The notes under the pieces: generated by a model
The model's input: the letters and a program-made list of their open reading frames with translations, nothing else
Told to the model about the DNA's origin: nothing
The model's database searches: none
Translations under genes and position numbers: made by a program
Assembly (NCBI GenBank): GCA_016935665.1
Contig: JAFGQN010000196.1
Span: 1-41,696, forward strand
Origin: Deltaproteobacteria bacterium
Lineage (GTDB): Bacteria > Myxococcota_A > Polyangia > JAAYKL01
DNA length: 41,696 nt
Direction of reading: 5' to 3'
In this document: one piece after another, positions 9,589 through 33,215 of the stretch
How positions within the stretch are numbered: position 1 is the first letter of the stretch
How the letters are laid out: every line of letters starts with the position of its first letter

Positions 9589-12576
9589 ATGCCCCATCGC
9601 ATAGAAATAAAACTGAAAAGCGGATACAACGATGCAAACGGTGCCAGAACCGCTTCGGAAATCCAGAGTTATCTCGGGTACCGTGTCGATGGCGTCAAAG
9701 TTGTTGATGTGTACACCATCGATGCGGAACTGGACGCACAGTCGCTGTCCAGCCTCGCGGCAGAGCTGTGTGACCCGGTTATCCAGGAATGGGCAGTGGA
9801 CAGCCCCATGGCCAGTGAATTTGACTGGCTGGTGGAAGTGGCGTTCCGTCCGGGTGTCACCGACAACGTGGGAAGAACCGCCACAGAATCCGCCAGAATG
9901 GTATTGACCGATGCGTTCGGAAAAGAAAATGCCATTTACACATCGCGGCAATATCTGATTAAAGGCGAACTCGATCGTAACAGCGTGGAAGACATCGCCA
10001 CGGGCCTGTTGTGCAATACGCTGATTCAGCGTCATCGTATCGCATTCAAGGACGAATTCAACTGGGATGGCGGAATGTCTGTCGAGGTGCCCAAGGTAAC
10101 GGAAACCGCCACTCCGGAAGCCAAAGCCATCAGTCTGGAAATCTCCGACGAAGAGTTGGTTCAATTGAGCCGGGAAATGACCCTGGCGCTCAGTCTGGAA
10201 GAAATGAAAGTCATTCAGGCATATTATCGCCGCGATGACGTTCAGGCGCTGCGCAATGAAAAGGGTCTTCCCAAAGCGCCTACCGACGTGGAAATCGAAG
10301 TGTTCGCTCAAACGTGGTCCGAGCACTGTAAACACAAAATTTTCAGCGCAAATATTGATTATCGCGATGGGGAAAACTCGGAGCAGATTTCTTCTCTATA
10401 CAAATCATATATACAGAAGACCACCAAAGAAGTGCGCACGTTGCTGGGCGACGAAGATTACTGCCTTTCAGTGTTCAAGGACAATGCGGGCGTCTGGAAG
10501 TTTACCGATGACTGGAATGTGGTTTTTAAAGTGGAAACCCACAACTCCCCGTCGGCCCTGGATCCGTATGGCGGCGCGCTTACCGGGATCGTGGGCGTCA
10601 ATCGCGACCCGCATGGAACCGGAAAAGGGTCGAGTCTGTTTTGCAACACCAACGTGTTTTGTCTGGCAGATCCATTTTATAAAGGAGAATTGCCTCCCAG
10701 GCTTCTGCATCCACGCCGGGTGATGGAGGGTGTCCGGGAAGGGGTTGAGCATGGTGGAAATAAAAGCGGTATTCCAACAGTGAACGGCTCGCTGGTGTTT
10801 GATGAGAGATTCCTTGGCAAACCGCTGGTGTTTTGCGGCACCGGGGGCATAATGCCCGCAGAAATCAACGGCGAGCCCTCTCACGAAAAACTGGCGTATC
10901 CTGGCGATCGGGTCATCATGGTGGGCGGACGCATTGGAAAAGACGGAATCCATGGCGCCACATTCTCCTCAGAGGAGCTTCATGAAGGATCTCCGGCCAC
11001 CGCCGTTCAGATTGGAGACCCCATCACGCAAAAACGAATGACCGATTTTCTGCTGCGTGCAAGAGATGAAGGGTTGATGACTTGTCTTACCGACAACGGC
11101 GCAGGCGGCCTGTCTTCGTCTATTGGTGAAATGGCCGAAGGGCCAGGGGGCGCTCGAATTGATTTGGCGCACGCCCCGTTGAAGTACCAGGGACTGCAAC
11201 CCTGGGAAATATTTATTTCCGAAGCTCAGGAGCGCATGACTGCGGCTGTTTCGCCGGAAAAACTGGACAGATTCAAGTTTCTCGCCGAAGAAATGGGCGT
11301 GGAAGCCACAGATCTTGGGGAATACACGGCAGGTCCCTGGCTCGAATTGTTTTACGACGGCCAGCCAGTGGCGGTGTTCGATATGGATTTTCTACACAAC
11401 GGTCTGCCTAAAATGAATCTGAATGCCATCTGGGAAGCGCCAGAGGACGCACCGGTGACACTTCCCGCCAGGGAAGACCTGACCGATGATTTAAACGCCA
11501 TGCTCGGACGACTGGATATTTGCTCCAAGGAATACTGGGTTCGGCAGTACGACCACGAAGTCCAGGGCGGTTCTGTAGTCAAACCCCTGTGCGGCGCCGA
11601 ACACGACGGGCCATCGGATGCGGCCGTTGTGCGTCCCATTCTCGAACTCATGAAAGGCGTTGCCGTATCGCACGGTATCTGTCCCCGCTACTCCGATATT
11701 GACGCCTACCACATGAGCGCCTGTGCGGTGGATGAAGCCATGCGAAATCTGGTGTGCGTCGGGGCCAATCCCGATAAAGTGGCCGCACTGGACAATTTCT
11801 GCTGGTGCGACCCGGTGAAATCATCGGGCACCCCGGACGGCGAATACAAACTGGCGCAACTGGTTCGTTCGGCCAAAGCGCTCAAGGATGTATGCGTGGC
11901 CTACCGCATGCCGCTGGTATCCGGCAAGGACAGCATGAAAAACGACTACTCCATTGGCGACACCAAAATTTCCATTCCCCCAACCCTCCTGGTCACTGCA
12001 GTGGGCGAGCTGGATGATGTATCGCTGGCCGTCACCATGGACGCCAAAAAAGCAGGCGATTTGGTATATCTTGTTGGAGATACATTCAACGATATGGGGA
12101 AATCCCAGTATCTGGACATGATTGGTGTGGATGGCGGCTGCGTTCCCAAATTGCGAAATCCCGAAAATACCATTCAGACGTACCGATGGCTGCATCGTGC
12201 CATAAAGGGCAAACTGGTGGCATCCTGTCACGACCTCTCCGACGGTGGATTGGCTGTTGCCGCGGCGGAAACCGCATTCTCCGGCAATCTGGGGATGCGC
12301 CTGGATTTGCGCAACGTGAAAGGCGATGTGCCCCGCGATGAGATTGCGCTTTTCAGCGAAACTCCGGGACGTCTGTTGGTCACCGTGGCGCCATCGTCAA
12401 AAGAGGCGTTTGAAGTGGTGATGGGAGACGTCGCCACATGCATCGGTCAAATAAACGAAGAAACGCGTTTACGCATCACTGGACTTGAAGGAGATACTAT
12501 CATCGATTCGGACATCTCCAGACTCAAAGGGTCCTGGCAAAAAACGCTTCGATTCAGTGAGGGTCCAAATGAGTAA
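9589..12576 (+). CDS. purL: Phosphoribosylformylglycinamidine synthase, large subunit (PurS-like repeat + PurL)
   Basis: A 995-residue FGAM synthase subunit; it converts FGAR to FGAM with ATP and ammonia delivered by PurQ. Residues 1-170 contain two PurS-like halves in tandem: RIEIKLKSGYND at the start, and WLVEVAFRPGVTDN near residue 81. The synthase core follows: TWSEHCKHKIF, the ETHNSPSALDPYGGA substrate and metal region, GTGGIMPAE, DNGAGGLSSS, and in the second half SGKDSMKND and SCHDLSDGGLAVAAAE. The separate PurS of Bacillus type is thus fused, and the glutaminase is separate, an arrangement like that of Desulfovibrio-type PurL. Start ATG at 9589 follows GAGGAGGAA. The stop overlaps the purQ start by 8 bp, which implies translational coupling. 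Confidence 0.96.
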   Translation: MPHRIEIKLKSGYNDANGARTASEIQSYLGYRVDGVKVVDVYTIDAELDAQSLSSLAAELCDPVIQEWAVDSPMASEFDWLVEVAFRPGVTDNVGRTATESARMVLTDAFGKENAIYTSRQYLIKGELDRNSVEDIATGLLCNTLIQRHRIAFKDEFNWDGGMSVEVPKVTETATPEAKAISLEISDEELVQLSREMTLALSLEEMKVIQAYYRRDDVQALRNEKGLPKAPTDVEIEVFAQTWSEHCKHKIFSANIDYRDGENSEQISSLYKSYIQKTTKEVRTLLGDEDYCLSVFKDNAGVWKFTDDWNVVFKVETHNSPSALDPYGGALTGIVGVNRDPHGTGKGSSLFCNTNVFCLADPFYKGELPPRLLHPRRVMEGVREGVEHGGNKSGIPTVNGSLVFDERFLGKPLVFCGTGGIMPAEINGEPSHEKLAYPGDRVIMVGGRIGKDGIHGATFSSEELHEGSPATAVQIGDPITQKRMTDFLLRARDEGLMTCLTDNGAGGLSSSIGEMAEGPGGARIDLAHAPLKYQGLQPWEIFISEAQERMTAAVSPEKLDRFKFLAEEMGVEATDLGEYTAGPWLELFYDGQPVAVFDMDFLHNGLPKMNLNAIWEAPEDAPVTLPAREDLTDDLNAMLGRLDICSKEYWVRQYDHEVQGGSVVKPLCGAEHDGPSDAAVVRPILELMKGVAVSHGICPRYSDIDAYHMSACAVDEAMRNLVCVGANPDKVAALDNFCWCDPVKSSGTPDGEYKLAQLVRSAKALKDVCVAYRMPLVSGKDSMKNDYSIGDTKISIPPTLLVTAVGELDDVSLAVTMDAKKAGDLVYLVGDTFNDMGKSQYLDMIGVDGGCVPKLRNPENTIQTYRWLHRAIKGKLVASCHDLSDGGLAVAAAETAFSGNLGMRLDLRNVKGDVPRDEIALFSETPGRLLVTVAPSSKEAFEVVMGDVATCIGQINEETRLRITGLEGDTIIDSDISRLKGSWQKTLRFSEGPNE

Positions 12577-13381
12577 AGCACGCGCCATCGTTTTGGCTGG
12601 AAACGGCATCAACTGTGAAAAAGAGACCGCTTACGCCTGCCGGCTCGCCGGGGCGGACGATGTGGATATTGTGTACCTTTGGGATTTGGCCGCTGGTGAA
12701 GCGTCGCTGGACGGGTATCAGCTGGTATGTTGTCCAGGCGGATTTCTGGACGGAGACGACCTGGGCAGTGCCCGGGCATCCGCGATTCGATTGCGACACA
12801 CCCAAATCAACGGTCAGTCGCTGCTGGAACAGTTCAGTACCCACGCAAAACAGGGCGGCCTGGTTCTGGGCATCTGTAACGGGTTCCAGCTGATGATAAA
12901 ACTGGGGCTGCTTCCCGCACTCGACAATCAGCTGGGCGTTCCCCAGGCCACGCTGACCTGGAACAACTCCGGTCGGTTCGAAGATCGCTGGGTGGCGTTG
13001 AAAGCCGATCCGGAATCTCCCTGTATTTTTACCAAAGGCGTTGAGTACATGGAGTTGCCCGTTCGCCACGGCGAAGGCCAAATCGTGGCGCCTGAAGAGA
13101 CCATGATTCAAATTCGGCAACGGCACCAGGGGCCTCTGATGTATATCGACCCCAACACAGGTGCGGCCACAGAAGAATATCCGCTCAATCCCAATGGAAC
13201 ACGTTTTGGAATAGCCGCCCTAACGGATACAACGGGGCGTCTGTTTGGACTGATGCCCCACCCCGAGGCATTTCTGCATCGCACCAACCATCCCCGCTGG
13301 ACAAGGGAAACTCTGCCCGAAGAAGGCGCCGGACTGCAAATATTCACCAACGCCATTAATTACATTAAAGAAAATATGTAA
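12569..13381 (+). CDS. purQ: Phosphoribosylformylglycinamidine synthase, glutaminase subunit PurQ
   Basis: A class I glutamine amidotransferase of 270 residues that releases ammonia for PurL. Nucleophile Cys103 lies in VLGICNGFQ; the oxyanion Gly region is CCPGGF (residues 54-59); the His-Glu pair is in LMPHPEAF near the C-terminus. Bacillus-type PurQ is about 227 residues; the extra length here matches the longer form that partners large fused PurL proteins. The ATG at 12569 lies within the purL end (ATGAGTAA overlap). No hairpin with a T-tract was found after the stop at 13381. Confidence 0.95.
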   Translation: MSKARAIVLAGNGINCEKETAYACRLAGADDVDIVYLWDLAAGEASLDGYQLVCCPGGFLDGDDLGSARASAIRLRHTQINGQSLLEQFSTHAKQGGLVLGICNGFQLMIKLGLLPALDNQLGVPQATLTWNNSGRFEDRWVALKADPESPCIFTKGVEYMELPVRHGEGQIVAPEETMIQIRQRHQGPLMYIDPNTGAATEEYPLNPNGTRFGIAALTDTTGRLFGLMPHPEAFLHRTNHPRWTRETLPEEGAGLQIFTNAINYIKENM

Positions 13382-13577
13382 TCCGCGCATTCCCGCCCCG
13401 CCTCTGATTTGAAGGGGTTCACGGTTTACTGCCACCATGTCCCACAATCGTGTCACGTTGAATAAAATGGTATTGCAGCGCCACTTTTTTTTCCATAAAA
13501 CTGAAATAAGGGAACCTAACTAAGTAAACGCGTTCTTTTGGAACATAAAACGAATTAAATACCACAGGGAGAAACTC

Positions 13578-14276
13578 ATGAACAAACTATTCATCCTTCT
13601 CCTGGGATTGCTGCTATTTGCCATGCTGGTCAACTGCAGCGGTTCCGGGTCGGAAACCGACAGTTCAGACGTGGACAGCGATACGGACGGCGATACAGAC
13701 AGCGACGGCGATTCGGACAGTGACGGCGATACCGACGGCGACACCGATGGCGACACCGATGGCGACTCGGACACCGATGGCGATACCGACACCGATGGCG
13801 ACACCGATAGTGACGGCGACAGTGATAGCGACGGAGATTCAGACAGCGATACGGGAGAAGCAGCATGCGAACACGACTGCCTGGCCCACTGCAACTCATG
13901 GAATGGCACACCCATGCCCGGCCAATGCGACGATGGACTGCGATGCTGTGATGGCGCAGAAATTCCCGATTCGGAAAGCGAAAACGTTGAAGATTCCGAA
14001 TCAGATACCGGCGAAGACACCGGCAGCGAGGAAGATACGGGGGATGTCACTGACGATTGCACGAGCTGCCACAACCCATTCCCACCACCTACACAAAGCG
14101 ATGGTTCCGTGCGAAATTCGGATGCCCACTCAGATCCCTTTCACAGCGGATACAAATGCAACCATCCGGATTGTCACGGTGGCGCTGTAAACGAAGACGG
14201 TACCGCTATCGTGGATGAAACACTCCATACAGATGGTACGATTCAGGCGGCCTGTTCAAACTGCCACAGGAGATAG
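13578..14276 (+). CDS. Lipoprotein with Asp/Gly/Ser/Thr linker and putative triheme C-terminus
   Basis: A 232-residue lipoprotein: hydrophobic signal, lipobox LVNC with Cys20, and a ribosome site GGGAG 8 bases before the ATG. Residues 25-92 are an almost perfect DTDGD/DSDGD repeat, very acidic. A Cys cluster follows (96-124, CEHDC to RCCDG), then a second Ser/Glu/Asp linker. The last 75 residues carry CTSCH (161-165), CNHPDCH (194-200, a CX4CH site) and CSNCH (226-230). CX2CH and CX4CH sites bind heme c in multiheme cytochromes of Geobacter type. Three hemes are therefore possible, giving a surface electron-transfer protein; this is inferred. A further His pair (AHSDPFH) could supply axial ligands. 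The linker may also bind calcium. Alternative: a structural Cys-rich domain without heme. Confidence 0.8.
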   Translation: MNKLFILLLGLLLFAMLVNCSGSGSETDSSDVDSDTDGDTDSDGDSDSDGDTDGDTDGDTDGDSDTDGDTDTDGDTDSDGDSDSDGDSDSDTGEAACEHDCLAHCNSWNGTPMPGQCDDGLRCCDGAEIPDSESENVEDSESDTGEDTGSEEDTGDVTDDCTSCHNPFPPPTQSDGSVRNSDAHSDPFHSGYKCNHPDCHGGAVNEDGTAIVDETLHTDGTIQAACSNCHRR

Positions 14277-14364
14277 GTCGTTTTTGATCTCAATCAATTC
14301 CTCCAACGTTTATGATTTTTGACATATTCTCCCGCATTGCCTGGAGTGAGACCGCTTGACTTAC

Positions 14365-16209
14365 TTACTCCAAGTCCTGATATTCGTACGCTCCCATATC
14401 AACAGAAGCGCCCACATGGCGGGGATTTCCGTCCAAATCAAATGGTGTATTCTCTCCAACGTTGTCATCGCTGTCCAAATCACCTGCATCCCCAGGCAAA
14501 GCACCTAGGCTTCCCGCGTTAATGCAGGGGGAGTCTGAAGAGAGTCGAAAATTGCCTTTATCAGAGTTTACAACCCGAGGATCCATATCAATGTTCCCAT
14601 CGCCACTGTAACCGCCCTGGATTGCGCTAAATGAAACGATTGGCGTCGAAGGTTCGGTGTCAGACTCGAAATTGAAAATTTCGTTTCCTTCTTCTGTGGC
14701 TGTATTCCCCCAAAGAATGCAATTGGATACGGTTGGCGAGGAGGCGCTTTCATTGAAAATACCACCACCACTGTTGGCGGTGTTTTTTATCACCGTACAG
14801 TTCGTTATCCGGGGTGAGGAACTGAATCGATTAGCAATTCCACCGCCAGAATATGCAGAGTTCCCAGTAAAGATACAATTGGTCACTGTGGGCATTGAAG
14901 AATCTAGATTCTCCATCGCGCCGCCGGAATCACCAGCGGAATTGTGAGAAAAGACACAGTTGATTACAAAAGGTGACGAGGAAAGGGAATTGCGTAACCC
15001 ACCGCCTCTACTGGCGGAATTATTCTCAAAAGTGCAGTGTGTCACAGTGGGTGAGGAATTATCTCTATTATACATTCCTCCACCAAAATCCGCCTCGTTT
15101 CCGGCAAATTTACAATTTGTTACAACTGGTGATGAAGCGTTATTGGACATCCCGCCACCTCCAATCACATCGACGTTGTCGATAAAGATGCAGTTGGTTA
15201 CGAGGGGCGATGATGACAGATTGCACATTCCTGCGCCATATGTGAAAGCCCTGTTGTTGGAGAAGGTGCAGTTTGTCACGGATGGTGACGAAGCGTCATT
15301 CAGCATCCCGCCGCCGACATCGTGTGGTTCACTCCCGTTTGCATTTCCACTGGTAATGATGAAGCCGTCAATAGTGGCGTTGTCGGCGCCTGTTACCACA
15401 TGGTACGCATTATCTGTATTGTCGCCCGAAATGCCAATATCGCCGCTCAATATCGTTGGGTTGGTGACGCTGTCCCGCTCGCGGCGATGTTTTTCATTCC
15501 CGACAAAGCCGCCGTAGATTGCGACATTGGATGCCAGCTGGATGGTTGCGGTTCGCTCATCGGCTGAGTCTAATTTTTTGGTGGGCAGGTAGTTCCCGGT
15601 TGCCACCCATACTTCACACTCAAGGATTTCAGCAACATCCAGTGCTGCCTGTATGGTATCCAGGGCCGACGCCCAGGATCTCCCGTCGTTGCCTTCGTAA
15701 CTGGCCAATCCACTTTTAACATACACCAGACAGGTGTCACAGTTGTCGCCGCTCCATCCGGAAGCACATCCGCACTCACCGTCCTCGCACCCGCCATTGA
15801 CACTCGCGCATGGAATGATTTCAATCGTCGCATTGCACTGATCTAGCACCTGTACGTTTCCATCCACGGTACATATGCGACTTGCTTCCAACTGAAATTG
15901 ACATGTGTCAGTGTTCGTATCCACATTTGTATCAGCATAACCATACGTATCTGAATCGCTGCTTACATCTGTTCCCGTACCTGTATCTGTATCTGTATCC
16001 CCATCGCTGCCAAAACCGGGGCCGGAGCCCGTATCCGTTTCGCTGTTGGTGTCGGTGACGGAGTCGGTATCTGTAACCGTATCGGTGCCAGTATCAGATT
16101 CGGAGTCGCCGTCCCCGTACAGATACCCATCGAAATCGGTAATCAGCTGGCACCCTGTTGCCAACAGGCAAATTATAATGAAAAGCCGTTTTGTCATAAA
16201 AATCCCCAT
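14365..16209 (-). CDS. Lipoprotein with EGF-like segment and right-handed beta-helix
   Basis: A 614-residue lipoprotein. Lipobox LATGC gives Cys20. The start at 16209 has GGGGAG 6 bases upstream; an in-frame ATG at 16197 also has GGGGA and is possible. A Ser/Asp/Thr linker spans about 33-100. A Cys-rich EGF-like segment follows (CEDGECGCASGWSGDNC, about 145-161). From about residue 210 come repeated units of the type SPxVTNCxFxxN-A-xGGGMxN, at least seven, typical of right-handed parallel beta-helix proteins such as polymorphic membrane protein repeats. The C-terminus ends with VDMGAYEYQ, a signature of choice-of-anchor Q beta-helix proteins. Likely a surface protein for adhesion or polysaccharide binding; no catalytic residue is identified. 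Confidence 0.88.
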   Translation of the reverse strand: MGIFMTKRLFIIICLLATGCQLITDFDGYLYGDGDSESDTGTDTVTDTDSVTDTNSETDTGSGPGFGSDGDTDTDTGTGTDVSSDSDTYGYADTNVDTNTDTCQFQLEASRICTVDGNVQVLDQCNATIEIIPCASVNGGCEDGECGCASGWSGDNCDTCLVYVKSGLASYEGNDGRSWASALDTIQAALDVAEILECEVWVATGNYLPTKKLDSADERTATIQLASNVAIYGGFVGNEKHRRERDSVTNPTILSGDIGISGDNTDNAYHVVTGADNATIDGFIITSGNANGSEPHDVGGGMLNDASSPSVTNCTFSNNRAFTYGAGMCNLSSSPLVTNCIFIDNVDVIGGGGMSNNASSPVVTNCKFAGNEADFGGGMYNRDNSSPTVTHCTFENNSASRGGGLRNSLSSSPFVINCVFSHNSAGDSGGAMENLDSSMPTVTNCIFTGNSAYSGGGIANRFSSSPRITNCTVIKNTANSGGGIFNESASSPTVSNCILWGNTATEEGNEIFNFESDTEPSTPIVSFSAIQGGYSGDGNIDMDPRVVNSDKGNFRLSSDSPCINAGSLGALPGDAGDLDSDDNVGENTPFDLDGNPRHVGASVDMGAYEYQDLE

Positions 16210-18364: not shown

Positions 18365-19045
18365 ATGACAGTTGACATTTCGCAGGTGTTCGAAAGCTAT
18401 TACTCGGCCGTATTTGATACAGACAGAGATGGTGCACTGGACGTGGTGGAAACGGCAATGAGGGATGGTATGACGGCGGAAACAATCGTGTTTGATGTGG
18501 TATTGCCATCCATGGATAAAATGCTTCATGCCATCAGTCAGGACGACAGTGCCACACTGTCACAGCATTTTTTGGCGGCAAAGGTTGCCGGAGAGCTGGT
18601 TGAAGGCCCGTTGCCGCGTTTAAAAAAAACATCGACGCAATGTGGCACTGTGGTGGTGGGCACTGCCGCCGGCGATTTCCATGGTTTGGGAAAGCGCATT
18701 GTCACAGGTTGTCTCGTGGCCAACATGTTCACGGTGCACGATGCCGGCCTGAACGTTTCACCTGTTCAATTTGTGGATTTGGCTGAGGAAACCGGGGCTG
18801 CCATAATTGGCGTATCGTCCATGATGATGCACACCACCGTGGCAGAGAATGGCCCCAAAGGTGTTCGGCGAGAGCTCGCACGGCGGAGCCTTGAACCTCG
18901 CATAAAGCTGATTGTTGACGGCGCGCCGTACCGCTTCGATGCAGCACTTTACCGCAAAGTGGATGCGGACGGATTTGCATTGAGCGGTTTGGAGGCAGTG
19001 GGACTGGTCCGGGCGCTGACTGCCATGGGAGAATATCATGCATGA
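18365..19045 (+). CDS. Corrinoid (cobalamin)-binding protein, MtbC/MtaC-like
   Basis: A 226-residue protein of the two-domain corrinoid type. Residues 1-90 form the helical cap domain (B12-binding 2). Residues 93-226 form the Rossmann domain with the base-off motif D-x-H-x-x-G in GDFHGLGKRIV (Asp104, His106, Gly109); His106 would be the lower cobalt ligand. The second site is GVSSMMMHT (about 149-157). The usual GG near the C-terminus is here VDGAP. In methyltransferase systems such proteins carry a methyl group on cobalt. Here it is the first gene of three overlapping genes with a UroD-like protein and a histidine kinase, so a sensory role is likely. The ribosome site is GGGGAG, 2 bases before the ATG. 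No cobalamin riboswitch was seen upstream. Confidence 0.9.
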   Translation: MTVDISQVFESYYSAVFDTDRDGALDVVETAMRDGMTAETIVFDVVLPSMDKMLHAISQDDSATLSQHFLAAKVAGELVEGPLPRLKKTSTQCGTVVVGTAAGDFHGLGKRIVTGCLVANMFTVHDAGLNVSPVQFVDLAEETGAAIIGVSSMMMHTTVAENGPKGVRRELARRSLEPRIKLIVDGAPYRFDAALYRKVDADGFALSGLEAVGLVRALTAMGEYHA

Positions 19046-19580
19046 CGCAATGTCCGTCTTCAAATCCATGGCCAACGATGAATTGCCATCAAGGGTGCCT
19101 GCAATCATTAATCTCATCGATCAGGGCGCCACGGAACTTGGACTCTCCAGTGAGGAGTATTACAGTCGCGCCGAAAACGTGGTGGAGGGACAACTGCGAC
19201 TGCACCGTAAATACGGTCATGATGTGGTTTGGGGTGCACATTATATCGCGAGAATTGCAGAAATGCTGGGCGCGCGGAAAACATTGTTTCCGACCGTGGG
19301 ACCGCCAAATGTGGGAGACCTGGTCATCAAACAATGGGATGATATTGAGCGCCTCGAAATTCCAGCCGACGATATGGGCTTGATTGATGATTCCGCAAAA
19401 AAAATAAGACACGCCGTACGCACCATTTTACTTAAGGGCGCAAAAGGGGTTGGATTTGCGTTCGGAACACTGATGATGCCCTGTCAGATTCCGGAAAAGA
19501 ACATTCATGAAATGATACAGGCCGTCCGCGAATTTGGGACATATGACATCCAGTTGCCGCAGATACGGGCCTCATTATGA
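19038..19580 (+). CDS. Internally shortened UroD/MtaA-family protein
   Basis: A 180-residue protein. Residues 18-118 resemble the N-terminal part of uroporphyrinogen decarboxylase-like corrinoid methyltransferases (RVPAIIN, then EEYYSRAENVVEGQL, KYGHDVVWGAH, and DDIERLEIPADD). The last 55 residues resemble the family C-terminus (GAKGVGFAFGTLMMPCQIPE followed by NIHEMIQAVREFG), keeping the Cys of the zinc motif. The central part of the TIM barrel (about 150 residues, with the H-x-C zinc ligands) is missing; full proteins have about 340 residues. The frame is intact and the gene overlaps the previous one by 8 bp and the next by 4 bp, so it is a functional product and not a pseudogene. Catalysis is doubtful; a partner or receptor for the corrinoid protein is more likely. 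Confidence 0.78.
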   Translation: MHDAMSVFKSMANDELPSRVPAIINLIDQGATELGLSSEEYYSRAENVVEGQLRLHRKYGHDVVWGAHYIARIAEMLGARKTLFPTVGPPNVGDLVIKQWDDIERLEIPADDMGLIDDSAKKIRHAVRTILLKGAKGVGFAFGTLMMPCQIPEKNIHEMIQAVREFGTYDIQLPQIRASL

Positions 19581-21382
19581 GCGGCTGCGAAAATTGCGAA
19601 AAACTCGAGGAGCGGATTGCAAAGCAGCGCAGCCGAATAACCAGGTTGGCGCGAGAAAAATCTCACCTGCAACTGGTGGCCGATGTATTGTCCGATCTGG
19701 CAAAACTCAATGGCATTTTGCCCATTGCCAGGCATACACTTCAGTTGCTGATGAACTCTATTGGCGGCACTAATTTTTCCATCTACTTTAAGCAGGAGGA
19801 CCGTTGGCTGTATCTCGACGTCTTCGGACGCCAGGAATCACTGCCCGAACCAAACGACGATGATGTTCGCAGCTCACTGGTTTCCCGCTGTGCCATGCAC
19901 TTTGATTCAGATGCAGACACAACGATGCCATTTTCCATGGCTACCGGTCAAAGCCGGTTTGAAAAATGGGTGTTTCCACTGGAAGTTGATGGTGAAATAT
20001 ACGGAGCACTCTGCGCCGATGGACTGCTGGTCCACCCCAAAGATGCCATCATTGAGCAACTGGGAATTGTCACCACGTACATCAGCCTGGTGTTGAAAAA
20101 TGAATCTCTCAATGAATCCAGGATTAAACGCGCCTACGATGCGCTAAAAATGAAAAATCAGGAACTGGAAAATGAAATCGACAGCCGTATTCGCGTGGAG
20201 CAGGAGAAGCATCAACTGCAGCTCCAACTGCAACAGGCACAGAAAATGGAAGCCATCGGTACACTGGCAGGCGGCATTGCCCACGATTTCAACAATCTGC
20301 TTAGCGCCATCATCGGCTACACGGACCTGGCTTCAGACGAATGTACTGAGAGCGAACGACAACATCACCTGGGGCAGGTAATGCGCGCCGCCGACCGCGC
20401 CCGGGAACTGGTGACTCAAATTCTGGCCTTCAGTCGCAAACAGGACGTTCGCAATGCACCCATTCTGATAGGACCGGTGATAAAGGAAGTAATGAAACTG
20501 CTCAGGGCGAGCATCCCCTCCACTATTTCCATTCACGTTGATGTGGATAACGAGTGTCCAGCGGTGTACGGCAATGCTACCAATTTTCATCAGATCATCA
20601 TGAATCTCTGTACAAACGCGACTCACGCCATGGAAGAAACCGGCGGTCAACTCAATGTAAAACTGAGCACACGCACATCCGGGAATAACCAGTCGATGGT
20701 TCAACTGTCCATTACCGATACCGGACAGGGAATCCAAAGCGAAATTCTTCCCAGAATATTTGAGCCCTATTTTACAACAAAGGGCGTTGGCAAGGGAACG
20801 GGCATGGGGCTGGCGGTGGTGCACGGCATCGTTCATTCGATTGGCGGCAATATAGATGTACTGTCCCGCCAGGGAAAAGGCACCACAATCATGTGTGAAT
20901 TTCCTGCTGTGTTCGACACATTCAGGGACAGTGAGGTGCCGGAAGGTCCATCCGCCTCGTATTCCGGTGTGGCAATGGTGGTGGACGACGAAGCATCCAT
21001 CGCTGCCATGGCCGCCCATATGCTGCGCAGAATGGGATTTCAGACCGACATTTTTCTGCAAAGTCATCGGGCACTGGAGGCCTTCTACACGTCGCCCGAC
21101 AGGTATTCACTGGTGTTGACCGATCAGACCATGCCGGAAATGACAGGTCTGCAGCTGTCCAAACACATCCTGGATTGTCGATACCTGCCCATCATCATAT
21201 CTTCAGGCTACAGTTCCAGCCTGGACGAAGAAAAACTGGCCAAACTCCAGGTGTCAGGATACATTGCCAAACCTTACAAATTCATTGAGCTGGAAAAAAC
21301 CGTTTCATCTGCCATGACATCCACGTGGCAATCCGCTGACGTCAGAGCCACAGATGAATCGGGGGAGAGCATTTCAAAATAA
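19577..21382 (+). CDS. Hybrid sensor histidine kinase (GAF-like, HisKA, HATPase, receiver)
   Basis: A 601-residue soluble kinase. The N-terminus has Cys4 and Cys7 (CENC) and a coiled coil (8-40). A GAF-like domain covers about 45-175. A second coiled coil (180-225) leads to the HisKA box IAHDFNNLLSAIIGYTD with phospho-acceptor His236. The ATPase domain has the N box IIMNLCTNATHAM, DTGQGI and GTGMGLAVV. A C-terminal receiver (about 455-580) has VVDDE and the phospho-Asp in LVLTDQTMP, with Lys in IAKPYK. No transmembrane segment is seen, so the signal is cytoplasmic. The ATG overlaps the UroD-like gene end by 4 bp (ATGA). The signal is probably the state of the corrinoid protein. No response regulator with DNA-binding output lies next to it. 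Confidence 0.92.
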   Translation: MSGCENCEKLEERIAKQRSRITRLAREKSHLQLVADVLSDLAKLNGILPIARHTLQLLMNSIGGTNFSIYFKQEDRWLYLDVFGRQESLPEPNDDDVRSSLVSRCAMHFDSDADTTMPFSMATGQSRFEKWVFPLEVDGEIYGALCADGLLVHPKDAIIEQLGIVTTYISLVLKNESLNESRIKRAYDALKMKNQELENEIDSRIRVEQEKHQLQLQLQQAQKMEAIGTLAGGIAHDFNNLLSAIIGYTDLASDECTESERQHHLGQVMRAADRARELVTQILAFSRKQDVRNAPILIGPVIKEVMKLLRASIPSTISIHVDVDNECPAVYGNATNFHQIIMNLCTNATHAMEETGGQLNVKLSTRTSGNNQSMVQLSITDTGQGIQSEILPRIFEPYFTTKGVGKGTGMGLAVVHGIVHSIGGNIDVLSRQGKGTTIMCEFPAVFDTFRDSEVPEGPSASYSGVAMVVDDEASIAAMAAHMLRRMGFQTDIFLQSHRALEAFYTSPDRYSLVLTDQTMPEMTGLQLSKHILDCRYLPIIISSGYSSSLDEEKLAKLQVSGYIAKPYKFIELEKTVSSAMTSTWQSADVRATDESGESISK

Positions 21383-21430: not shown

Positions 21431-22219
21431 TTAAATTTGCACCCAGTCTTCGCTGAGCAGTTCCCCTTTGAGGCTCACCACTATTTTTTTAACGGGAACC
21501 TTTCTTGATGCGCGCGAAACCGCCTCTCTGGCCAACCCCAATAATCCGGTGCAACAGGGGACTTCCATGATCATGACCGTCAGCGTATTGATTTTTGCTT
21601 CTTCAATCATGGCCACCAGCTTTCGCACATAGGTTTCCTGGCCGTCATCCAATTTCGGACACGCCACCGCCAGTGCTTTTCCCTGCAGATACGACCGATG
21701 AAAATCCCAAAGCGAAAACGCCACACAGTCCGCGGCCAGCAATACGTCCGCCCCAATATAATATGGCGCTGTGGGGCTCACCAGATGCATCTGAATCGGC
21801 CACTGCCGAAGCGCGGATTTCGATGCAATGGGACCGGATTTACCGACATGGGGTGCATCCGAAACGGATTCGCCGGCATCAAACGTCAGAGTCCTTGCCC
21901 CGGGACATCCACCCATGTGGCCATGATTGTGGCCGTGTGACACCGGAGTCTGATGGGCCACAGGCGATTTCACAGCGCCCTGCCTCATGTGCACCGCCAC
22001 CGCCGTCTCATCAAAATCGTCTGCGTCACGCTCCTCAATGGTAATGGCATCCTCCGGGCAATCACCCAGACAGGCGCCGAGACCATCGCACAGATTATCG
22101 GCAATCAACCTCGCTTTGCCATTGATGATTTGTATCGCGCCCTCAGCGCACGAAGGCACACACAACCCACACCCGGTGCATTTCTCCTCGTCAATTCGAA
22201 CGATCTTTCGCTTTGCCAT
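21431..22219 (-). CDS. 4Fe-4S ferredoxin partner of the hybrid cluster protein
   Basis: A 262-residue iron-sulfur protein. The first 4Fe-4S site is Cys14, 17, 20 and 24 (CTGCGLCVPSC). The second is a variant, CDGLGACLGDCP (Cys44, 50 and 54), as is usual in this family. A His-rich loop (SHGHNHGHMGGCPG) follows, then a C-terminal domain of about 130 residues with conserved Cys (DCVAF, ACPKLDD and VPCCTG). Members of this family sit next to hcp in many anaerobes and probably pass electrons to it. Here the gene lies 3 bp after the hcp stop, so it is the second gene of that operon. Full reaction partners are not shown by the sequence. Confidence 0.88.
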   Translation of the reverse strand: MAKRKIVRIDEEKCTGCGLCVPSCAEGAIQIINGKARLIADNLCDGLGACLGDCPEDAITIEERDADDFDETAVAVHMRQGAVKSPVAHQTPVSHGHNHGHMGGCPGARTLTFDAGESVSDAPHVGKSGPIASKSALRQWPIQMHLVSPTAPYYIGADVLLAADCVAFSLWDFHRSYLQGKALAVACPKLDDGQETYVRKLVAMIEEAKINTLTVMIMEVPCCTGLLGLAREAVSRASRKVPVKKIVVSLKGELLSEDWVQI

Positions 22220-22222
22220 AAA

Positions 22223-23863
22223 TTAACCTACCATTGCTGCAACATCTTCCGCCACCGCTCCAGTGGGCTTGATGTCAAAATTTTCCACAAGGACTTTGAC
22301 CACATTGGGCGACAAAAAAGCGGGCAGCGTCGGTCCAAGGCGAATGCCCTTCACTCCCAGGAACAGAAGCGCCAGAAGCACGGTCACCGCTTTTTGCTCA
22401 TACCAGGCGATGTCAAATTCAATGGGCAAATCATTAATATCATCGAGACCAAACACTTCTTTCAATTTCAGCGCCACCACCGCCAGCGAATAACTGTCGT
22501 TGCACTGACCCGCGTCCAGAATGCGGGGAATGCCACCAATATCGCCCAGAGGCAATTTGTTGTAGCGGAACTTGGCACAACCGGCAGTTAAAATAATGGT
22601 ATTGTCGGGCAACGCTTTGGCCACATCCGTAAAATATTCCCGTTCACTCTGCCGCCCATCGCATCCGGCCATGACCACGAATTTTTTTACGGCGCCGCTT
22701 TTCACCGCGTCCACCACTTTGTCCGCCAGAGCCAGCACCTGAGCATGGGCAAAACCACCAGTCAACGTGCCTGTTTCCAGTTCTTTGGGCGGCGCGCTGC
22801 TTTTTGCCTTTTCGATAACGGCTGAAAAGTCCTTCTGGCCCGAATCATTTTTGCGGGAGAGGTGTGTCAATCCGGGAAATCCAGCCACGCCCGTTGTAAA
22901 CACCCGATCTTTGTAACTGTCGGATGGCGGCACGAGGCAATTTGTGGTCATTAAAATGGGGCCATTAAAAGCGTCAAAATCCTTCTTCTGGTCGTACCAG
23001 GCGCCACCGTAATTGCCCACAAAATTGTCGTACTTCTTAAATTTGGGATAGTAGTGCGCAGGCAACATTTCTCCATGTGTGTACACATCCACGCCGGTGC
23101 CGTTTGTCTGTTCCAATAAATCCTCAAGGTCTTTGAGGTCATGGCCCGAAATGAGAATGCCAGGATTACTGCGAACCCCTAAAGACACCTCTGTAATTTC
23201 GGGATTGCCGTATGCACCCGTATTCGCTTCGTCCAGCAACGCCATAACAGTTACTGCTGTTTCACCGGCCTTCAGCACGAGGCCAATCATTTCATCCATG
23301 CTCAATACCTTTGTGGTGGACGCCATGGCTTCAATTATAAAATCATAAACGGCCGAACTGGTTTTCCCAAGAGCCGCCGCGTGACTGGCGTAAGCTGCCA
23401 ACCCTTTTACGCCATAAATCAGCAATTCGCGCAATGATCGGACATCTTCATTTTCCTGGCTCAACACCCCAACGGCGGCGCCTCTGGTCTCGTACTCCGC
23501 GGAATCACCACTCCAAAGAGCCTCATCTTGTGTCAAATCCGACACTTCCACACCTGCTTTCTGCAGCTCGTCTTTGAGACGGTCTCTGGCCACCAGCACT
23601 TTCGCCACCCAGCTGCTGATAGCCGCCGAATCAAAATTCACATTGGTTACCGTCACAAACAACGCATCCTGTACCAGTGCGTCCACGTGTTTTGTGATCA
23701 CCCCGTTTTGTTTAGCGCGCTCCGCCACAAGACTCAGGCCCTTAACTGCATGCACCAGCATGTCCTGCAGATTTGCTGTATCTTCAGTTTTGCCACACAC
23801 GCCTTTTTTGGTGCAGCCAACATTCTTCAGAGCTTCCTGACATTGAAAACAAAACATACTCAT
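22223..23863 (-). CDS. hcp: Hybrid cluster protein (hydroxylamine reductase / NO-detoxification)
   Basis: Hcp of 546 residues. The N-terminal cubane cluster motif is CX2CX8CX5C (Cys5, 8, 17 and 23), which makes it class I, as in strict anaerobes. Hybrid-cluster ligands are visible in SGHDL (His), [14 protein letters not shown] and [10 protein letters not shown], with Glu further on. The enzyme reduces hydroxylamine in vitro and acts as an NO reductase or S-nitrosylase in relatives; it is oxygen sensitive and cytoplasmic. The ATG at 23863 follows AAGGGA 6 bases upstream. Its promoter holds a palindrome overlapping the -10 region, and an Rrf2-type regulator gene lies just upstream in the same direction. 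The ferredoxin gene is 3 bp downstream. Confidence 0.96.
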
Positions 23864-23907
23864 AGTGATTCCCTTTTTATCCTTTCGGGGTCATAGTTGC
23901 TGACCCA

Positions 23908-23956
23908 GTAAATAGGCATAGCAATACCTATTTACCAGCAAACACTCTTCTGTCAA
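23908..23956 (-). promoter_or_regulatory. hcp promoter with palindromic operator
   Basis: On the minus strand a consensus -35 TTGACA (23956-23951) is followed after about 16-17 bases by a -10-like TAAATA/AAATAG. The -10 lies inside a perfect inverted repeat: arms GTAAATAGG (23908-23916) and CCTATTTAC (23927-23935), 10-bp spacer. The spacer is itself nearly symmetric. The palindrome centre is about 58 bp before the hcp ATG. A repressor bound here would block polymerase. The most likely binder is the Rrf2 protein encoded upstream. Confidence 0.72.
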
Positions 23957-24057
23957 TTTTTTTTAGCGGAAAACAGACGTCACATGGCGCACCTGCATAC
24001 AGCAGTAAAAAGAATGATTTAGAACAGCAGCACGAAAAAACGATTCGAAACCAGTAT

Positions 24058-24468
24058 TTAACGATTTATAACGTCGGCAAGGGTTACATTGGAGAAATGG
24101 CTGGCCACACGGTTTTGAACATCTTCCACGAGATTTCCAAACACACAATGCGCAACGCCGCAGTGTTTGGTCCCAAGAATACAGGCGTCTTCAATTGCTA
24201 TGGCGCCATCTATGGCCTCGTAAACATCTTTAAGGGTAATTTCGCCGGGCGCTTTGGCCAGTACAAATCCACCTCTGGGACCACGAATGGATTTCACCAG
24301 CCCTGCCCGGGTCAATCGTTGCAGTACCTTGCTCAAGTGATTTGCGGACACCTCGAATACATCGGCGGCTTCAGCGGTGGCCACTGGACGCTGTGCGTCG
24401 TACTGCTCGGCCATATACGCCAGTGCGTGAATTCCCAAATTGGCTGCATCAGATATTTTTAAAAACAA
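24058..24468 (-). CDS. Rrf2-family iron-sulfur transcription regulator
   Basis: A 136-residue Rrf2 protein. I choose a TTG start at 24468, since GGGAGGT lies 3-4 bases upstream and Rrf2 proteins start with a (M)xFLKISDAxNLGIHAL-type helix; the frame is open further up to 24513. The winged helix spans residues 1-80 (SANHLSKVLQRLTRAGLV, then GPRGGF). Three Cys (96, 103, 108; C-X6-C-X4-C) are in place to bind a 2Fe-2S or 4Fe-4S cluster as in IscR, NsrR and RsrR. It probably senses NO or redox state and represses hcp through the palindrome at 23908-23935. It is in the same direction as hcp, 194 bp upstream. Confidence 0.9.
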   Translation of the reverse strand: MFLKISDAANLGIHALAYMAEQYDAQRPVATAEAADVFEVSANHLSKVLQRLTRAGLVKSIRGPRGGFVLAKAPGEITLKDVYEAIDGAIAIEDACILGTKHCGVAHCVFGNLVEDVQNRVASHFSNVTLADVINR

Positions 24469-24532
24469 TAGCACCTCCCATAATTCGGCATAAGCGTACC
24501 ACAAAGTTTCCAATTATCACCGGAATATTATG

Positions 24533-30997: not shown

Positions 30998-32101
30998 ATG
31001 AATACCGCAATCCAAGCACAGGAACAAAGCGAAGAAGTCGAAGGACTGGGAGGTGAAGAAGATCGCAACTGGGGCGATTATCCCATCGATACGCTGCTAA
31101 TCCGCAATGAATCGCGAACCATTCACGACATTCTCCGGCGAATCGAGAAGGGGTCTTTCGTTATGAACCCGGACTTTCAACGGGATTTTGTTTGGCCAGA
31201 AGACAAACAAAGCAAGCTGATTGAATCGGTGCTGTTGCGAATTCCATTGCCGGTGTTTTATCTGGCAGAGGATGAAAACGGACGAATGATTGTAGTGGAC
31301 GGCCTTCAGCGACTTACTACATTTCAGCGATTTGTCTCGAACGAATTGAGGTTGAAGCTTCCCGAACGCGAAGATCTCAACAACAAAACATTTGATTCTC
31401 TGCCTTCAAAATTTCAAAACCGAATCGAAGATAGTAACCTCATCCTGTACGTTATTGATGCGAAGGTACCTGAGCAGGCCAAGCTTGACATTTTTGAACG
31501 CGTTAATAGTGGTATGCCTCTGACGCGGCAACAAATGCGAAATAGTTTGTATATGGGACCAGCCACGCAATTTTTGAGGGAGGAAGCTCATTCCAATGAA
31601 TTTTTAGAGGCAACTCGTGGGAGCCTAAATAAAGAAAGCATGCGTGATAGAGAATTCGTCAACAGATTTTGTGCTTTTTTTCTTTTAGGTATAGATGACT
31701 ACCGGGGAGACATGGACGAGTTTCTCGCAAAAGCTCTTCTAAAGATGAATGCCATGGATTCAAAGCAACTTCTGGAGTTGTCGAATCAGTTCAGACTTAG
31801 CATGATAAATAATCAGTACATTTTTGGTCGTTCAGCATTTCGAAAACATACGAAAGAATCACCAGGGCGTATCATCAACGCTTCACTCTGGGATGTTATG
31901 TCTACCGTTCTTTCTCAATGTCCACATTCAGTTGTTCAAACTCATGCGGAAAAAATAAAATCAGCTTTTTTTGGATTGATAGAAGATGGGGGATTCAACC
32001 AAGCCATTACTTATAGTACGAATCACACCAAACAAGTGCGTTTCCGATTCGAAATGGCGCAGAAAGCTTTCAAGGAGGTTCTCGGTGATTCGCAGGATTG
32101 A
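30998..32101 (+). CDS. DUF262 (GmrSD/ParB-like) protein
   Basis: A 367-residue DUF262 protein. Residues 57-66 are NPDFQRDFVW, then KQSKLIESVLLRIPLP. The nucleotide-binding/nuclease motif is VDGLQRLTT (Asp101 to Arg105; the usual form is DGQQR, here DGLQR). Next come IFERVNSG and MRNSLY, the normal end of the DUF262 core. GmrSD-type type IV restriction enzymes and several phage-defence systems use this domain with NTP hydrolysis. No GmrSD C-terminal HNH domain (DUF1524) is present; the remaining part is helical. It is the first gene of three, and its end overlaps the ATPase start by 17 bp. Confidence 0.9.
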   Translation: MNTAIQAQEQSEEVEGLGGEEDRNWGDYPIDTLLIRNESRTIHDILRRIEKGSFVMNPDFQRDFVWPEDKQSKLIESVLLRIPLPVFYLAEDENGRMIVVDGLQRLTTFQRFVSNELRLKLPEREDLNNKTFDSLPSKFQNRIEDSNLILYVIDAKVPEQAKLDIFERVNSGMPLTRQQMRNSLYMGPATQFLREEAHSNEFLEATRGSLNKESMRDREFVNRFCAFFLLGIDDYRGDMDEFLAKALLKMNAMDSKQLLELSNQFRLSMINNQYIFGRSAFRKHTKESPGRIINASLWDVMSTVLSQCPHSVVQTHAEKIKSAFFGLIEDGGFNQAITYSTNHTKQVRFRFEMAQKAFKEVLGDSQD

Positions 32102-33215
32102 TTTAAATTACTTTAAATGCTTCAAAAAACTCCGGTTGCCGCTATCTCCGCTGACCATGTTATCCGGTACCAATGCCACAGGAAAATCCTCGGTACTTCA
32201 GGCACTCGTTTTACTACATCAGACAATAGTGGAACAGGAATGGTCAACCCGCTTGCATCTGAATGGCAAATCGATCCGTCTCGGCACCGTTGCAGATGTT
32301 GTTGACAAGGTAAACAGCAGGGAGTTGTTCGAAATTGGAATTATCGATGACAGTGACACGTATTTCTGGTCCTTCCGAGGCGGTCGTTCTGACATGGCCA
32401 TGAAAGTGGAACAGGTTGCCATTTCAGATAAAATTTTCAGTAGACCCGAACAGCTGCATTACATGCTGCCCAGTAATATTGATATAACTGGCCTTGCATC
32501 ACAGCTCAGACGGCTCTCCTATATCACCGCTGAACGAGTCGGACCGAGGGAAGTCTATTCTCTTGAAGATATGGAAAGCACTACCACGGTGGGAACCGCA
32601 GGTGAATATGCGGCAAGCGTCCTGCATGGGGGCAGAGATGAAAACGTGCTGGATGAACTTTGTCTGTCCGATGCACCGCCAACGAGATTGAGGCAGGTTG
32701 AAGCCAGAATGAATTCTTTTTTTCCAGGTTGCACATTGAATTTGCAGCAGATACCTCAGGCAAACGCCGTTACGCTTGGCATCAGAACATCTAACGATAC
32801 AGATTTTCATCGTCCTGTACATGTTGGTTTTGGACTGACACAGGTATTACCCATTGTTATCGCGGCACTGTCAGCATCAAAAGGCGACTTGCTTTTGATT
32901 GAAAACCCGGAAGTTCATCTTCATCCTGCCGGTCAGGCAATGATGGGACGGTTTCTCTCAGAGGTTGCCAGCGCCGGGGTTCAGGTAATCATCGAGACCC
33001 ATAGTGATCATATTCTAAATGGTATCCGCCGTTCAGTTAAAGAGAACGAAATATCCAATAAAGACGTCTCCATTCATTTTTTCTGCCAGCGTTCTGAAGA
33101 TGCTCCCCAGGTGATCAGTCCGCAGATCGATCCCGATGGCAATATAGATTCCTGGCCAGATGGTTTTTTTGACCAGTTCGACAAGGATGCAAACTATTTT
33201 GCAGGTTGGGAGTGA
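32085..33215 (+). CDS. AAA ATPase (DUF3696/OLD-like) of the DUF262 cassette
   Basis: A 376-residue ATPase with a GTG start at 32085, since AAGGAGGT lies 5 bases upstream; it overlaps the DUF262 gene. Walker A is GTNATGKSS (28-36); Walker B is LLLIENPEVHLHP (about 269-281) with catalytic Glu; ETHSDHILNG is the ABC-type His switch. The central part (about 60-260) holds the helical insert seen in Rad50/OLD-like enzymes. The C-terminus (DSWPDGFFDQ) matches the DUF3696/AAA_21 family. No TOPRIM nuclease domain follows. It probably acts as the NTP-driven sensor or motor of the cassette, with the next gene product. Confidence 0.9.
   Translation: MIRRIDLNYFKCFKKLRLPLSPLTMLSGTNATGKSSVLQALVLLHQTIVEQEWSTRLHLNGKSIRLGTVADVVDKVNSRELFEIGIIDDSDTYFWSFRGGRSDMAMKVEQVAISDKIFSRPEQLHYMLPSNIDITGLASQLRRLSYITAERVGPREVYSLEDMESTTTVGTAGEYAASVLHGGRDENVLDELCLSDAPPTRLRQVEARMNSFFPGCTLNLQQIPQANAVTLGIRTSNDTDFHRPVHVGFGLTQVLPIVIAALSASKGDLLLIENPEVHLHPAGQAMMGRFLSEVASAGVQVIIETHSDHILNGIRRSVKENEISNKDVSIHFFCQRSEDAPQVISPQIDPDGNIDSWPDGFFDQFDKDANYFAGWE

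Follow-up and report, generated by a model that had tools for sequence, protein, structure and literature searches.

The window, by which we mean the whole stretch of 41,696 nucleotides that was analysed, contains an operon of three overlapping genes, probably a degenerate copy of a sensory module that occurs widely and comprises a corrinoid protein, a UroD-like protein of full length, a DUF1638 protein and a GAF-kinase or GAF-GGDEF output. Two of these four parts, UroD and DUF1638, are damaged in the window genome, and the reading frames of the corrinoid protein and the kinase are open; this combination leads us to regard the locus as one copy of a four-part system that is undergoing decay.

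Results

Organisation of the operon in the window

The operon comprises the following features:

18365..19045, + strand: corrinoid (cobalamin-binding) protein of the methyltransferase type, 226 aa (Pfam and genus orthologues)
18674..18691, + strand: intact DxHxxG motif of the corrinoid protein, D104-F-H106-G-L-G109 (sequence)
19038..19580, + strand: UroD-like remnant, 180 aa, with 175 codons gone in frame (UroD profile and relatives)
19368..19376, + strand: junction of the UroD deletion, GACGATATG, with only a few bases common to the ancestral sites (comparison with G001 and G002)
19577..21382, + strand: soluble hybrid histidine kinase, 601 aa, with CxxC at residues 4-7
19667..20116, + strand: GAF-like sensor region of the kinase (profile from the window, G001 and G002; hhalign)
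20225..20917, + strand: HisKA and HATPase_c core of the kinase (Pfam and profile matches)
20975..21304, + strand: receiver domain at the C-terminus of the kinase, residues 467-576 (Pfam Response_reg)

These open reading frames bear out an earlier note on this DNA, which had placed three genes here with overlaps of 8 bp (corrinoid/UroD) and 4 bp (UroD/kinase, ATGA) and had recognised an intact D-x-H-x-x-G site in the first product. In His-on corrinoid proteins this motif bears the lower cobalt ligand. The corrinoid protein matches the Pfam B12-binding domain (E 5e-15) and, weakly, the B12-binding_2 cap domain (22.6 bits, just below the Pfam cut-off of 23 bits), and its best solved relatives are 1y80, a predicted cobalamin-binding protein, and 7xcn, a trimethylamine corrinoid protein. 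Orthologues are present in two genomes of the same genus, G001 (62% identical) and G002 (53%); as a query in the scan of the genome collection, the window protein retrieved no relative. Like the corrinoid genes of the module, it lies directly upstream of the UroD gene.

The third product carries HisKA, HATPase_c and Response_reg in one protein according to Pfam, and is thus a hybrid two-component histidine kinase. Its CxxC is invariant across the three genus members (window genome, G001 and G002). Pfam did not call a GAF domain in the N-terminus, and the kinase has no DUF1638 match of its own. However, alignment of the N-terminus to the GAF part of DUF1638-GAF proteins gave an hhalign E of 4.6e-5 (probability 69). 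Because it aligns to this region, the window kinase may be regarded as the counterpart of the GAF-kinase half of the fused proteins, and the predicted GAF nature of its N-terminus, which had also been proposed in the earlier note, is supported indirectly. With this GAF-linked kinase the window has an output of the kind found in the module. Neither another methyltransferase nor an activase was found among the window ORFs (fifteen scanned with Pfam, most judged by eye), in agreement with the previous reading of the neighbourhood.

The shortened UroD gene

The UroD-type protein had been described as lacking the centre of its barrel, and comparison with relatives shows the same: aligned to either G001 or G002, 175 central codons are absent in frame, so that over half of the UroD barrel is missing. 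The window protein covers only positions 6-113 of 346 in the Pfam URO-D profile, and matches a profile built from relatives in two pieces, 1-109 and 280-342 of 343. In both G001 and G002 the corrinoid gene is followed by a full-length UroD gene of about 345 aa. The N-terminal 110 aa of the window protein are 67% identical to both relatives, and are as conserved as the flanking genes. The C-terminal piece is 39% identical to G002, as against 54% between G001 and G002 in this region, and its near-invariant APGGGF motif has become AKGVGF. A census of the phylum covered 379 genomes, 17 of which carried this UroD at E 1e-20; among the UroD-bearing genomes only the window genome has an internal gap, and two other short matches, in G105 and G258, coincide with an assembly gap and the end of a contig. 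The deletion junction is in unique sequence, and nothing long was found in a search for repeats near it. Judged by these alignments, the short UroD is a local deletion derivative, with no purpose-built design.

Two other explanations of the short gene were weighed. The deletion might be an assembly error, with the gene intact in the source organism, as the genome is a draft of 249 contigs and was judged from the assembly alone. However, a match of only a few bases at the junction, itself in unique sequence, is not long enough to cause a misassembly, constraint on the C-terminal remnant is relaxed, and the DUF1638 copy of the same genome carries independent stops, all of which makes this explanation very improbable. 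The other is that of the earlier note, in which the UroD stub reads the ligand state of cobalt for the kinase as a functional adaptor. Preservation of the frame and of both overlaps speaks for it, as does the conservation of the N-terminal 110 aa at the level of the flanking genes. Against this, the truncation is unique to the window genome among those sampled, what is left amounts to less than half of the barrel and has a near-invariant motif broken in its C-terminal remnant, DUF1638 is also broken in this genome, and among relatives a full-length UroD-like protein is commonly encoded in the same operon. We consider the reading of the stub to be wrong, and a functional adaptor to be scarcely credible.

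DUF1638 in the genus and its predicted structure

Corrinoid, UroD-like and kinase genes are kept together in the genus and far beyond it, as a check for co-conservation suggested in the earlier note revealed. In G002, which shares the local context of the window (a GH9 cellulase upstream), a DUF1638 gene (PF07796, E 1.6e-25) lies between UroD and the kinase. In G001 the operon is without DUF1638, and an intact, unlinked DUF1638 of 192 aa is encoded elsewhere. The window genome holds a counterpart of this G001 copy, 51% identical over 187 aa, which contains stops and a frame-disrupted stretch and is a pseudogene; it is the only DUF1638 of the genome. Because the flanking genes differ, orthology of the G001 and window-genome copies is assigned from sequence alone. 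No remains of corrinoid, UroD or kinase genes were found beside the pseudogene. DUF1638 had remained invisible in the earlier reading because it is missing from the window locus.

An AlphaFold2 model covering 62 DUF1638-linker proteins, with the Thiocapsa marina protein as reference, had a pLDDT of 92. Residues 199-352 of the model are predicted to adopt a GAF fold, with matches to the GAF domains of PDE, KdpD and DosS at Z 13-16. DUF1638 itself was modelled as an alpha/beta domain in which C7, C35, C65 and C86 are near-invariant, and has no sequence relative among solved structures. A two-lobed, Rossmann-like resemblance to the PrpR sensor domain (Foldseek E 6e-4, TM-score 0.42) was too weak to assign, and that to the LacI or periplasmic-binding fold (best Z 6.6) was likewise too weak for a fold family.

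Distribution of the module

A profile of the conserved UroD alignment was used to scan 84,980 species genomes and yielded 260 relatives, of which the best 80 were examined. Among these best 80 of 260, 77 have a corrinoid gene immediately upstream of UroD and 74 carry DUF1638 on the downstream side; because the loci were picked by two UroD peptide patterns together with the best 80 scores, these proportions describe one clade and not an overall frequency. The genes are tightly packed, with median gaps between the matched regions of the 80 loci of 21 bp (corrinoid-UroD) and 34 bp (UroD-DUF1638). By their record titles, the carriers belong to Desulfobacterota, Alphaproteobacteria, Chloroflexota, Bacteroidota, Ignavibacteriales, Nitrospirota, Riflebacteria, Kiritimatiellia, Magnetococcales, SAR324 and Syntrophomonadaceae, to Methanolobus and other methanogens, and, among Beta- and Gammaproteobacteria, to Thiocapsa, Allochromatium, Methylobacter and relatives of Beggiatoa.

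Within the phylum of the window genome, a corrinoid-UroD-DUF1638 series, with a kinase or another GAF protein either next in line or in fusion, was found in G002, G011, G028, G097, G100, G112, G121, G127, G136, G168, G227, G229, G279, G280, G284 and G296. In the UroD tree the window clade stands at a distance from the fused-type one, which counts against our main reading. That the window represents a damaged copy belonging to this corrinoid-UroD-DUF1638-kinase/cyclase module is, in our view, very probable.

Outputs and neighbouring genes

In most cases DUF1638 forms the N-terminal part of a longer polypeptide, where it is joined via GAF to an output that Pfam identifies either as HisKA/HATPase, with or without REC and PAS, or as GGDEF. 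Output counts were taken from the labels of the UroD tree, setting aside 12 further tree genomes: at the 79 loci with a near-complete UroD frame, the output is a kinase in 47 and GGDEF in 14, and the remainder comprises cuts at contig ends, other C-termini and loci with no DUF1638 in place. The rate of kinase domains upstream of the module is about 0.06 per kb, so that 47 in-frame DUF1638-kinase fusions are beyond chance. Sensory modules exchange outputs on a constant input, and at least nine changes of output were counted on the UroD tree.

Among the other neighbours, only signalling proteins recur widely; a receiver-domain family is found near the module at 26 loci, and many kinases besides. 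Families of methyltransferase II, activase or transporter are found beside the module at 4 loci at most. DUF1638 is most likely the part that links the corrinoid protein to the kinase. The proposal in the earlier note of a two-component sensor built from methyltransferase parts is thus right in kind and remains the best reading, with DUF1638 joining those parts to kinases or cyclases; its other element, the shortened UroD, does not belong to the design.

Cobalt site, UroD site and activases

All of the 72 corrinoid proteins of the fused type that were compared have the DxHxxG motif. For the full-length module UroD the best solved relative is MtaA (PDB 4ay7, E 1e-24), and 9rui (Cdm) is a weak match of the UroD profile. 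The zinc ligands of MtaA and MtbA form the pattern H-x-C...C. The MtaA zinc-site cysteines are not conserved in module UroDs, and in the window UroD the zinc-site region is deleted.

The window genome as a whole yielded no RACo activase, which extends to the genome the earlier observation that no activator lies nearby, nor was one of this type found in the sister species G001 and G002. Outside the genus, RACo-type activases are absent from 6 of 10 carriers tested, all six of them Chromatiaceae, and present in the other 4, in which corrinoid turnover is possible because of them. MetH, as encoded in the window genome, includes an activation domain of its own. As RACo-type proteins, the activase family searched, are missing from nine carrier genomes, a freely cycling catabolic system is less likely in these nine, although they may encode an activase of another family.

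These data bear on whether the operon is a metabolic one, in which a compound would be demethylated by UroD and the corrinoid protein, and the kinase would serve only to regulate expression, as MecA and MecD may do in the dichloromethane mec cassette. The corrinoid protein and UroD do belong to methyltransferase families, some carriers have RACo activases, and in the mec cassette a histidine kinase adjoins corrinoid methyltransferase genes (PMC9768040). On the other hand, DUF1638 is fused to kinases and GGDEF cyclases, no methyltransferase II, transporter or activase family is recurrent near the module, and RACo is missing from the six Chromatiaceae carriers and the three genus members. We therefore hold a metabolic operon to be unlikely, rank a purely metabolic reading below signalling, and conclude with good confidence that sensing, and not metabolism, is what the module serves.

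A sensory module could also respond to light instead of a methyl donor, if the corrinoid protein bound adenosylcobalamin as a cobalamin photoreceptor. The tryptophan of GxxW, which fused-type corrinoid proteins have in common with CarH-type domains, is present in 72 of 72, several carriers are phototrophic, and light-responsive B12 domains are known alongside cyclase and GAF domains (PMC11796333). However, none of these proteins has the EH element that the published light signature includes (Wx9EH in 0 of 72), and the window corrinoid protein lacks both the GxxW tryptophan and EH, the tryptophan being missing from the window clade as well. Moreover, a photoreceptor would leave the conserved UroD partner unexplained, and the record titles place many carriers in dark sediment or groundwater. 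We rank a light sensor low for want of the EH element and consider it improbable.

Discussion

The signalling module that we favour could operate as follows. The corrinoid protein would carry cobalamin, and the UroD barrel, without the zinc site of MtaA, would serve as a substrate-selective scaffold through which a methylated or otherwise cobalt-reactive compound alters the ligand or the oxidation state of cobalt. DUF1638 would then dock on the corrinoid protein in a state-dependent manner and relay the cobalt state through the GAF linker to the kinase or cyclase. We infer the setting of the cobalt state by UroD and its reading by DUF1638 from the DxHxxG motif, from the zinc-less UroD and its parallel in CdmB, from the tie of DUF1638 to a corrinoid protein in Phaeobacter, and from the absence of RACo. 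For methyl or ligand state on cobalt as the quantity sensed, we put the chances at about even. Slightly more tentative is the wider proposal of a phylum-spanning trigger-enzyme chemosensor, in which a non-metabolic corrinoid/UroD pair demethylates or binds a compound and DUF1638 transduces the cobalt-ligand state to kinases and cyclases. In the window genome the input has probably been lost, or the corrinoid protein may act on the kinase alone; some function may remain because both of these proteins are still intact.

Cobalamin-based sensing is otherwise known mainly from single-protein photoreceptors, and a module of this kind might enable bacteria and methanogens to detect methylated or cobalt-reactive compounds. 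DUF1638, which Pfam lists as a family of unknown function, would gain a role, and the annotation of such UroD and corrinoid genes as methylotrophic metabolism would call for caution. Cultured carriers (Thiocapsa, Allochromatium and Geomonas) make the module directly testable. Our search of open-access full text, to which the literature search was limited, found no description of a corrinoid-UroD-kinase/GGDEF module, and a corrinoid-UroD-DUF1638-kinase/cyclase sensor has apparently not been described so far.

Nearest in concept are the kinase of the mec cassette, the Cdm and Cmu systems, and the CarH-type and B12-domain-cyclase photoreceptors. In anaerobic dichloromethane degraders, the mec cassette comprises a MecA kinase with a PocR domain, the regulator MecD, the corrinoid protein MecB and the UroD-superfamily proteins MecC, MecE and MecI (PMC9768040). 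As in the module, a histidine kinase adjoins corrinoid and UroD-superfamily genes; it differs in being a metabolic operon with methyltransferase II and a transporter, in the PocR-sensing type of its kinase, and in that a DUF1638-kinase fusion is not reported there (PMC9768040).

The chloromethane system Cdm consists of CdmB, a UroD-fold methyltransferase I, the corrinoid protein CdmC and the methyltransferase II CdmA (PMC13222342). CdmB functions in the absence of zinc, and has been proposed by its authors to be mainly a substrate scaffold (PMC13222342). Cdm thus shares with the module a zinc-less UroD-fold barrel and a separate corrinoid protein, but it is enzymatic, has methyltransferase II and an activase, and lacks a kinase or cyclase (PMC13222342). 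MtaA, the methylcobalamin:coenzyme M methyltransferase, is the best solved relative of the module UroDs (PDB 4ay7), which in contrast have not kept its zinc-site cysteines.

For DUF1638, mutant fitness data in Phaeobacter link the domain to a corrinoid protein (PMC5764234), and in marine alphaproteobacteria it is placed, together with RamA, with a split methionine synthase and a glycine betaine demethylase (PMC5764234, PMC12478193); there it is described only beside corrinoid or RamA proteins. The genetic tie to a corrinoid protein is common to these systems and the module, whereas the alphaproteobacterial ones are metabolic, with a stand-alone DUF1638 and a RamA-like activase. Finally, CarH and other cobalamin photoreceptors also use a cobalamin-binding domain in signalling, sometimes with a cyclase or GAF domain (PMC11796333), but the module has only part of the light signature, without EH, and its corrinoid protein is a protein on its own with UroD as partner.

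Variants and degraded parts of the module

The arrangement of the putative sensory module varied between loci. Two adjacent copies were found in Geomonas sp. Red32 (L153, 5-3813), one corrinoid gene was flanked by two UroD genes in L127 and L129, and UroD preceded the corrinoid gene in L145. A further output type of the DUF1638-GAF proteins ends in a short cysteine-rich C-terminus (motif ICxxCKKIRxDxGxW...SHGICxxC), and no kinase or cyclase domain was called in its three representatives:

L066:7401-8669
L073, minus strand, to 1465
L096:8038-9270

The window genome also carries a DUF1638 pseudogene, listed with its intact counterpart in the sister species G001:

L065:5855-6412 (G000:C119, about 117854-118411), pseudogene with internal stops
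L183:6023-6601, minus strand, intact

Other genes in the window and at further loci

Immediately beyond the kinase gene, genes on the opposite strand seem to make up a unit of their own for nitrosative or redox stress. A possible defence pair is encoded further on, on the plus strand:

21431-24513 (-), hydroxylamine reductase/hybrid cluster protein, ferredoxin-type protein and Rrf2 regulator
30998-33215 (+), GmrSD_N-domain protein gene overlapping an AAA/DUF3696 ATPase gene

Numerous proteins that are probably exported, judging by prediction, contain long linkers made of Asp/Ser/Thr repeats (DSDTDGDSDSD). This trait is common to the genus:

window 13578-14276 and 14365-16209
L024:3623-4645 and 11563-14454
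L065:6715-7839
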